DNA of 64,000 nt from assembly GCF_000429925.1 (NCBI RefSeq), contig NZ_AUCU01000009.1:62001-126000 (forward strand), written 5' to 3'. Positions 1,664 through 58,969 of this stretch are shown piece by piece. Within the stretch, counting starts at the first letter, position 1; every line of letters begins with the position of its first letter. Position numbers and translations under genes: made by a program. The notes beneath the pieces were generated by a model. It ran no database searches. It saw only the letters and a program-made list of their open reading frames with translations, and was not told the origin of the DNA. This DNA is from Desulfatirhabdium butyrativorans DSM 18734 (GTDB lineage Bacteria; Desulfobacterota; Desulfobacteria; Desulfobacterales; Desulfatirhabdiaceae).

Positions 1664-1722
1664 CAGGTTTTTTCACTTCGCACCACGCACATCGCATCTC
1701 CCATTTTTGATGGGCTCGCAAA

Positions 1723-2017
1723 AAGTCTAAAAGTCTCATCCGAGACGCATGGGGGGAGATACGCCTTTTTCGTTGCATCGGATAAACTCAGCCGCCCGAG
1801 CTCGTAAGGGCCGGGCATGTGGCCAGACTTCAACGATGGGTCATTGGAATGCAACTTCTTGTTATTCAAACAGATATGGCTTGAATGAGCATGCCCGGCC
1901 CAACGATCTCCGGCGGCTTCAAACAAGTATCCGATGCAACATCAAAAGGCGTATCTCCTCCCATGCTCAGGCCCGTCAAGAGCCATAGCCGGGGTAAAAG
2001 CGACTTTTTGCAAAGCC
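1723..2017. repeat. Foldback repeat element A, copy 1 (~295 bp)
   Basis: This segment has a diverged second copy at 58558-58866. Its ends are inverted repeats (left CTCGCAAAAAGTC at 1725-1737; right GACTTTTTGC at 2002-2011 and flanks). Inside, three nested arm pairs are visible: 1747-1784 with 1928-1966, GCCGCC/GGCGGC further in, and GGGCCGGGCATG (1808-1819) with CATGCCCGGCCC (1890-1901). Almost the whole element can therefore fold into one long imperfect hairpin with a ~70-base apical region. It encodes no transposase, which suits a MITE-like mobile element or a structured RNA/DNA unit. It fills much of the gap between the epimerase and acyltransferase genes. Confidence 0.8.
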
Positions 2018-2028
2018 GTCATTTTTAA

Positions 2029-12829: not shown

Positions 12830-13155
12830 ATGTTTATGGCGAGGGGCGCAGACCCCGGAGATGAAAATACGGCTGGCATTCCGGCGCAGATGCGGTAATA
12901 CAGACCAGGGCATTCGCAGGGACTCGTAGGGGCGACCGGCCGGTCGCCCCTACAGGCTGCCCATTGCCGACTGATGTATTTTCGCGATAATCCCCCATGC
13001 AACCGGGATTTCACCCCGATGAATGAAAGTCGCAGGAGCAACCTACAAAAAATGGGAGCCATCCGCTTTCTTCTGACTCCTGACTTCTGACTCCTGATAT
13101 TCGACTTCGGTTGGAAATGTTCATGGCGAGGGGCGCAGATCCCGGAGATGAAAAT
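12830..13155. repeat. Composite repeat block bounded by 39-bp direct repeats
   Basis: Copies at 12830-12868 and 13117-13155 are 39 bases with two differences (core GGCGAGGGGCGCAGA). Between them lie the 28-bp palindrome at 12926, a segment homologous to 2029-2117, three CTGACTY heptamers (13073-13093) and GATATTCGACTT. The 451-base gap between the methyltransferase and next glycosyltransferase holds this block and otherwise no gene. Confidence 0.8.
12926..12953. repeat. 28-bp perfect palindrome (GTAGGGGCG family)
   Basis: Half-site GTAGGGGCGACCGG followed by its exact reverse complement. A second member at 54767-54802 shares the arms and also the following bases (GGCTGCC...CACGATAA-like flank), so the repeated unit extends beyond the palindrome. 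Confidence 0.9.
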
Positions 13156-57915: not shown

Positions 57916-58146
57916 TTAAGCAGCAAGCAAGTACTTTTTCCGTTGCTCTTTTTGTTGCTTTCGAAGTTCTTTGATTTCTAATGCTCTACCAATGATCTGG
58001 ATATTTCGAGCGATTACAGCAAAGGCAACATAGCGTTTGAATCCTTCTATGCCATGATCGGGACATCTGTCGAGGCCATGATTCTCCAGAGCATTGATGG
58101 AGGATCCACAGACGAATGCTGATGTCGTAACCTGATAAATTTTTAT
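57916..58146 (-). pseudogene. Transposase C-terminal fragment
   Basis: On the - strand a frame ending TAA at 57916-57918 reads SSINALENHGLDRCPDHG, then IEGFKRYVAFAVIARNIQIIGRA and a Lys/Gln-rich tail ending KKYLLAA. This is the conserved C-terminus of an IS transposase of the ISNCY-like type (ENHGLDRCPD...GFKRYV...ARN). Just upstream, SIRLWI appears in a neighbouring frame, implying a frameshift near 58115, and nothing recognisable extends beyond about 58146. The rest of the gene is missing, so it is a remnant. Confidence 0.7.
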
Positions 58147-58363
58147 GGTTATGGAAAACCCTGAGGAGAGATATCATTTTTTCATCGCAAATGGGATTGC
58201 AGATTAAAAATGGCCAGGCGTGAAGCCTGTCAGAATTTAAAGCGCCGGCCTCGGAGTACGGCAACTGCCGCAAAGCGGCTTACTTGAACAAAGGGCGAAA
58301 TGTATGCTTGACATGTAAAAGAACAATTTTTACACTCTCTCCCCAATCATCCTTCACTACCTC

Positions 58364-58383
58364 TCAACCCTTAAAACTTAAAA
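58364..58383. repeat. 20-bp direct repeat, left copy
   Basis: TCAACCCTTAAAACTTAAAA, identical to 58867-58886. The two copies flank exactly the block of foldback elements at 58384-58866. Confidence 0.85.
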
Positions 58384-58385
58384 GT

Positions 58386-58521
58386 GACGACTCCGCAAAA
58401 AGGCTGGATGTCCCGCGTTCCGCGGGATCGTGCTGCATCCCTCGTCGCTGAGGCGTACGTATAAGTACGCCTCACAGACGGGATTTGCATTCCTTGCCTG
58501 CGGCCTTTTTTCGAAGTCGTC
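58386..58521. repeat. Foldback element B (136 bp)
   Basis: Terminal inverted repeats of 19 bases with two mismatches (GACGACTCCGCAAAAAGGC at 58386-58404; complement at 58503-58521). Inside are two perfect hairpins: TCCCGCG-TTC-CGCGGGA (58411-58427) and TGAGGCGTAC with GTACGCCTCA around a 6-base loop (58449-58474). No coding capacity. A three-hairpin non-autonomous element by appearance. Confidence 0.75.
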
Positions 58522-58527
58522 CATATC

Positions 58528-58577
58528 TTGGACTTTTTGCGAGACCATCAAAACTGATGGACTCGCAAAAAGTCCAA
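58528..58577. repeat. Long hairpin at junction of elements B and A
   Basis: Arms of 23 bases (58528-58550 and 58555-58577) with a single A-A mismatch and the loop AAAC; core GGACTTTTTGCGAG. The right arm is the left end of element A copy 2, so the hairpin may represent two abutting element ends in opposite orientation. Confidence 0.8.
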
Positions 58578-58866
58578 AAGTCTCATTCGAGTCGCATGGG
58601 GGGAGATACGCCTTTTTCGTTGCATCGGATAAACTCAGCCGCCCGAGCTCGTAAGGGTCGGGCATGTGGCCAGGCTTCAGCGATAAGCCATTGGAAAGCA
58701 ATATCTTGTTATTCAAACAGATATGGCTTGGTAGCGCATGCCCGACCCAACGATCTCCGGCGGCTTCAAACAAGTATCCGATGCAAGATCAAAAGGCGGT
58801 TCTCTCCCCATGCTCAGGCAAGGAAATCCCCCAAAATCGGAGGTAGAGCGACTTTTTGCAAGTCCA
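58558..58866. repeat. Foldback repeat element A, copy 2 (309 bp)
   Basis: Second copy of the element at 1723-2017. Terminal repeats TGGACTCGCAAAAAGTC (58558-58574) and its complement (58850-58866, one mismatch). Inner arms GGGTCGGGCATG (58655-58666) and CATGCCCGACCC (58737-58748) differ from copy 1 by a C-G to T-A pair change that keeps the helix. The right end abuts the direct repeat at 58867 exactly. Confidence 0.8.
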
Positions 58867-58910
58867 TCAACCCTTAAAACTTAAAACTTAAAACTTAAAA
58901 CTTCTAACTT
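58867..58910. repeat. Right 20-bp direct repeat and AAAACTT heptamer array
   Basis: 58867-58886 repeats 58364-58383. Four AAAACTT heptamers run from 58876 to 58903, with a fifth, changed copy (CTAACTT) to 58910. Confidence 0.85.
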
Positions 58911-58969
58911 TTAACCCTGAAACCCTATTTTGGTCTAATTGAGGGCTGTACCATGAAAGCTGGTATGTA

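Follow-up and report, generated by a model that had tools for sequence, protein, structure and literature searches.

Two foldback elements 4 bp apart in a heptamer array of Desulfatirhabdium butyrativorans, and the 4-bp target duplication of their family

Layout of the locus

The window analysed here (the whole stretch of 64,000 nucleotides from Desulfatirhabdium butyrativorans DSM 18734) contains two foldback elements, B and A, which stand side by side within an array of heptamers (Table 1). As the preliminary description had reported, exact 20-bp repeats lie beside this block. The window has exactly two copies of TCAACCCTTAAAACTTAAAA, both on the + strand (58364-58383 and 58867-58886), and the rest of the genome has no further exact copy. 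Measured against random sequence, a repeat of 20 bp is far beyond chance.

The block had been placed at 58384-58866. Its reading as a composite of B and A stands, but its bounds are corrected to 58385-58869: B begins with TGACG at 58385, and A finishes with ...GTCCATCA at 58869. The first three bases of the right 20-mer are the terminal TCA of element A and the remainder is the start of the array; the flank sequence truly common to both sides is the array sequence ACCCTTAAAACTTAAAA. What had been taken for a separate element, a hairpin with 23-bp arms (58528-58577), consists of the right end of B, AAAC and the left end of A. Read across, the present flanks are TTAAAAG-B-AAAC-A-ACCCTTAAAAC, and heptamers continue beyond the start of the right 20-mer (58873-58903, 4.4 units).

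Table 1. Features of the block and its surroundings, in window coordinates
Feature	Position	Strand	Remarks
Heptamer array, left part (TCAACCC TTAAAAC TTAAAAG)	58364..58384	+	includes left 20-mer 58364-58383
Element B, 166-bp MITE-like foldback	58385..58550	+	ends TGACGACTCCGCAAAAAGGC / GACTTTTTGCGAGACCATCA
Spacer AAAC, 4 bp	58551..58554	+	length equals the family's target duplication
Element A, 315-bp MITE-like foldback	58555..58869	+	ends TGATGGACTCGCAAAAAGTC / GACTTTTTGCAAGTCCATCA
Heptamer array, right part (ACCC TTAAAAC x4 ...)	58870..58911	+	
Second element A copy in window	1708..2021	+	87% identical; TTTT/TTTT flanks

The - strand at ~57920-58175 carries what is left of a transposase C-terminus; its NCBIfam match, ISNCY_1, covers 40 residues with E 1.2e-14 and falls far short of the cut-off. 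The intergenic region has therefore received other insertions too.

The heptamer array and the 20-bp repeats

When up to two mismatches are allowed, the 20-mer matches 39 sites in the genome (21 forward, 18 reverse), as against 0 forward and 1 reverse for the reversed control pattern. Beyond the two exact copies, the 37 sites with one or two mismatches nearly all have TTAACCC in place of TCAACCC. These 20-mer-like sites lie in intergenic arrays of TTAACCC and TTAAAAC units. Seven of the 27 array sites in the genome hold at least two copies (with at most two mismatches) within 60 bp, mostly at 21-bp spacing. An insertion anywhere in such an array would therefore be flanked by long direct repeats that predate it. 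The 20-bp repeats beside the block are almost certainly array sequence and not a target duplication. Another such array, at L060 on contig C69, has a family member of ~105 bp inside it, with ACCC on one side and ACCT on the other.

Arrays of TTAACCC/TTAAAAC are also dispersed in several genomes elsewhere in the taxonomic family and order (G001, G002, G005, G006, G013 and G021). In the window's own genome (loci L033-L060), a conserved stretch resembling AAAATCAAAACGTTCCCATCCACCCC often precedes them. Heptamer arrays of a different unit, CTGACTC, occur in the window at 2118-2212 and 13070-13106, with 13.6 copies at 2118. The former lies ~100 bp from the second copy of A, and at a further locus (L083) an element end is shortly followed by an array of the CTGACTC type.

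Short tandemly repeated heptanucleotide sequences are known in bacteria, for example the cyanobacterial STRR. Like the arrays described here, these are dispersed intergenic 7-bp arrays able to hold insertions of mobile elements; in contrast, the unit here is TTAACCC/TTAAAAC and the host group is distant.

Elements A and B are probable MITEs of one family

When the region was searched with BLAST against the genome that the window comes from (G000; 4.48 Mb in 73 contigs), the block resolved into two families of repeats. A and B each have about 20 copies there, dispersed and in some cases partial, and the same search returned no second instance of A and B as a pair. Aligning the flanks of the copies recovered a terminal repeat of 20 bp that is common to both elements, TGATGGACTCGCAAAAAGTC. 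Ends of this kind occur at 128 sites in the genome at three or fewer mismatches, vs 0 for the reversed control. B folds much better than its shuffles do, with a z of -6.8, and A is one long imperfect hairpin with a z of -12.4.

Very probably, A and B are non-autonomous transposons (MITEs) of one family, with ends that belong to an IS1182-like transposase group. Like other bacterial MITEs they are short, non-coding and foldback-forming, with terminal inverted repeats and many dispersed copies. A short target duplication is found across the copies, although it is not intact at the window's A and B. Their ends are common to a larger, autonomous, transposase-bearing element (IS1182-like, in other genomes of the order), which is again as in bacterial MITEs; the difference is that the presumed source transposase of A and B is seen only in those other genomes. 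A literature search on MITEs in Desulfobacter-related bacteria returned no matching paper. The kind of element is ordinary, and its targeting is somewhat notable.

Of 194 genomes of the order, 57 have family ends (at most one mismatch). One genome of this order, G016, carries 158 near-exact ends, on elements that are mostly ~134 bp among the copies read. The IS1182-like protein has no match there, and the source of this large MITE expansion is not visible. At 1440-1735 of L012 (contig C4 of the window's own genome), a copy of B lies between two partial elements with TGGA on each side, and ~40 bp of surrounding sequence is directly repeated. Longer direct repeats can therefore also come from adjacent elements with common ends.

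The family duplicates 4 bp at a probable sequence motif

Both ends could be recognised for 37 elements of the genome, the window's A and B included. The outer 4-mers are identical in 20 of these (0.5 expected from swapped flanks); elsewhere in the order, 34 of 54 copies show such identity (1.4 expected). The second copy of A in the window likewise has a 4-bp duplication and no 20-bp repeat. The longest repeat in the 40-bp flanks of own-genome elements outside the block is 10 bp, at L060, which itself lies within a heptamer array.

These counts bear on the proposal, made in the preliminary description, of a long (20-bp) target duplication. The exact repeats on both sides would fit a single insertion of the whole 483-bp block as one unit with a duplication of 17-20 bp. 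The flanks of other copies, which had been named as the check, contradict this: they carry 4-bp duplications, and identical stretches of at least 6 bp were found in 0 of 37 and 0 of 54. Moreover, the 20-mer is array sequence, B and A are found apart elsewhere and never in this pairing, and A would be left without its own terminal TCA. We regard a single insertion as very improbable, and the 20-bp repeats are better read as array sequence. Neither element of the window has an exact 4-bp duplication, the flanks being AAAG/AAAC for B and AAAC/ACCC for A.

The ambiguous positions are T in 88 of 96 sites and A in 91 of 96. For this reason, and because the terminal T and A are inseparable from the target, the family may in truth duplicate 6 bp (ANNNNT), with ends GATGG...CCATC; exceptions point both ways. 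The target motif derived from 68 solo sites is TNA-ANNT-TNA, in which the A and T beside the 4-mer reach 94% and the outer bases resemble the element ends TCA/TGA. Within the heptamer array, 36% of positions are above the window's 99th percentile for likeness to the target, vs 14% in shuffles, and TTAACCC is also acceptable as a target.

In the 68 reconstructed empty targets, we found no pairing or covariation of the arms beyond composition, so the target looks like a sequence motif rather than a stem-loop. IS1272, a member of the IS1182 family, replaces stem-loops and leaves no duplication (PMC5678879). Stem-loop replacement of this type was considered for the family here and rejected, as 4-bp duplications are present and the arms lack pairing beyond composition.

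A candidate transposase in other genomes of the order

Genome G033 contains an element of 1,879 bp between family ends, of which the left has one mismatch and the right has three; its single ORF, of 558+ aa, has the domains DUF772 and DDE_Tnp_1_6. Related elements of 1.88-1.92 kb with family ends encode a transposase of the same two domains. In NCBIfam, the transposase matches IS1182 best (NF033551, E 6.6e-44), with a score of 150.6 that falls below the curated cut-off of 270; for this reason it is termed IS1182-like and is not filed as a member of IS1182. Relatives of the G033 transposase were found in 36 of the 194 genomes of the order. Where ends could be recognised, they are versions of the family terminal repeat, and six of these elements are flanked by 4-bp duplications (ATTT, ATTA, AAGT, ATCT, AACT and ACCT).

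Within the IS1182 family, ISPse1 is 1653 bp long with 16-bp ends and a 4-bp duplication (PMC3281130). A duplication of 4 bp is also seen in the family here, and the associated transposase resembles those of the IS1182 family in its best NCBIfam match and its one ORF.

No family transposase was found in the window's own genome, an incomplete draft of 73 contigs. The search that matched 36 other genomes gave no match to the G033 protein there, and among the end sites listed of the 128, none encloses a transposase. Contigs C67 and C14 have IS1182-like matches at their ends, which were set aside as weak partials without good family ends. Movement of A and B probably depended on a DDE transposase of the IS1182-like kind that acted in trans and duplicated 4 bp on insertion; this enzyme may now be lost, or its gene may lie in unassembled sequence.

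Apparent recurrent insertion beside a resident copy

Across 242 genomes of the order, we searched for a right end followed, after a gap of 0-14 bp, by a left end. Such tandem junctions occur at 41 sites in 24 genomes, and the gap is 4 bp in 35, 5 bp in five and 1 bp in one. Comparison of the spacer with the outer 4-mers of 29 tandem loci showed identity for 13 of 21 left sides (0.5 expected) and for 13 of 18 right sides (0.4 expected). Two loci have the same 4-mer three times, as ATTT-IS-ATTT-MITE-ATTT (L174) and ACCT-IS-ACCT-MITE-ACCT (L183). Given that the spacer usually equals the outer 4-mer in tandem loci, new copies seem to go into the 4-bp duplication next to a resident copy, rather than to arrive as part of a transposed dimer.

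IS30 has two kinds of target, hot spots and sites next to its own ends (PMC9333248). The family here is like IS30 in that insertion beside an existing copy gives end-to-end tandems. It differs in its transposase group, judging from family matches, and in having a 4-bp spacer equal to the duplication, which fits repeated use of a duplicated target. The abutted ends and short spacer of the block also resemble the IR-IR junctions of IS30 (PMC9333248), and B-A could have moved into the array as a preformed tandem dimer, an end-to-end junction intermediate. The inner spacer of such a dimer should be unrelated to the outer duplication, yet the two are usually identical in related tandem loci, as in the threefold ATTT and ACCT above, and the genome lacks a second copy of the B-A pair. 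Entry as a dimer is improbable.

The tandems would be accounted for by a self-renewing target. Insertion at TNA-ANNT-TNA would duplicate the core 4 bp, and the ends TGA...TCA would rebuild that target on both sides, so that copies could stack with the 4-bp spacer unchanged. We lean slightly towards the proposal that an IS1182-like clade, together with its MITEs, restores its own target in this way, and that heptamer arrays of target-like units act as landing strips.

History of the block

The preliminary description had seen the block as mobile foldback elements within a heptamer array, and the present analysis agrees. We hold with good confidence that the core of its history was two MITE insertions into a pre-existing heptamer array. 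This confidence covers the core only; the likelihoods that we attach to the alternatives concern the history of the pair, and they overlap with it and with one another rather than summing to one.

We infer the following order of events, insertion history and heptamer loss. B probably entered first, into an AAAC of the pre-existing array (TTA-AAAC-TTA). A probably came next, into the AAAC directly to the right of B, which would give B-AAAC-A. The flanking 20-bp repeats would be adjacent 21-bp units (TTAACCC TTAAAAC TTAAAAC) split by the insertion, and the outer 4-mer mismatch (AAAG on the left, ACCC on the right) would come from one substitution and the loss of one heptamer beside A. In a drift model that starts from an ancestral array of two 21-bp units, the present flanks are obtained exactly with one C-to-G change and one 7-bp loss.

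An entry of A at the 4 bp next to B, and not independently of it, is fairly likely. The two could instead have inserted separately, B at AAAC and A at ACCC, with the intervening heptamer lost later and the 4-bp spacer a coincidence. The family member at L060, between ACCC and ACCT in a similar array, and the acceptability of TTAACCC as a target are consistent with such a history. Coincidence, however, leaves the exact 4-bp spacer unexplained, and this spacer is a family-wide pattern; we consider independent insertion unlikely.

Recombination into a heptamer array had also been suggested; the array is there, but recombination is unnecessary for explaining the flanks. As a dispersed repeat, the array could recombine, and the block could have arrived through homologous recombination of one array repeat with another. 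The two elements have kept their ends to the base, though, other copies insert outside arrays with 4-bp duplications, and no other array of the genome carries the B-A pair, all of which makes this route most unlikely. Two successive insertions remain the preferred reading, and the block is probably an old example, in an array rich in targets. A search for an empty site among relatives, which included no genome of the same genus, found none; the region upstream of the neighbouring gene was not conserved in the 9 inspected of 12 orthologues.

Implications

The analysis disposes of the 20-bp duplication, which was a misleading claim, and it cautions that direct repeats around an element inside a tandem array should not be equated with target duplications. 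It also delineates a MITE/IS family that is widespread and is marked by a clear duplication of 4 bp, a target motif, recurrent self-adjacent insertion and a candidate transposase. The standout feature of these MITEs of the IS1182-like group is the recurrent tandem with a 4-bp spacing, in which the spacer is unchanged.
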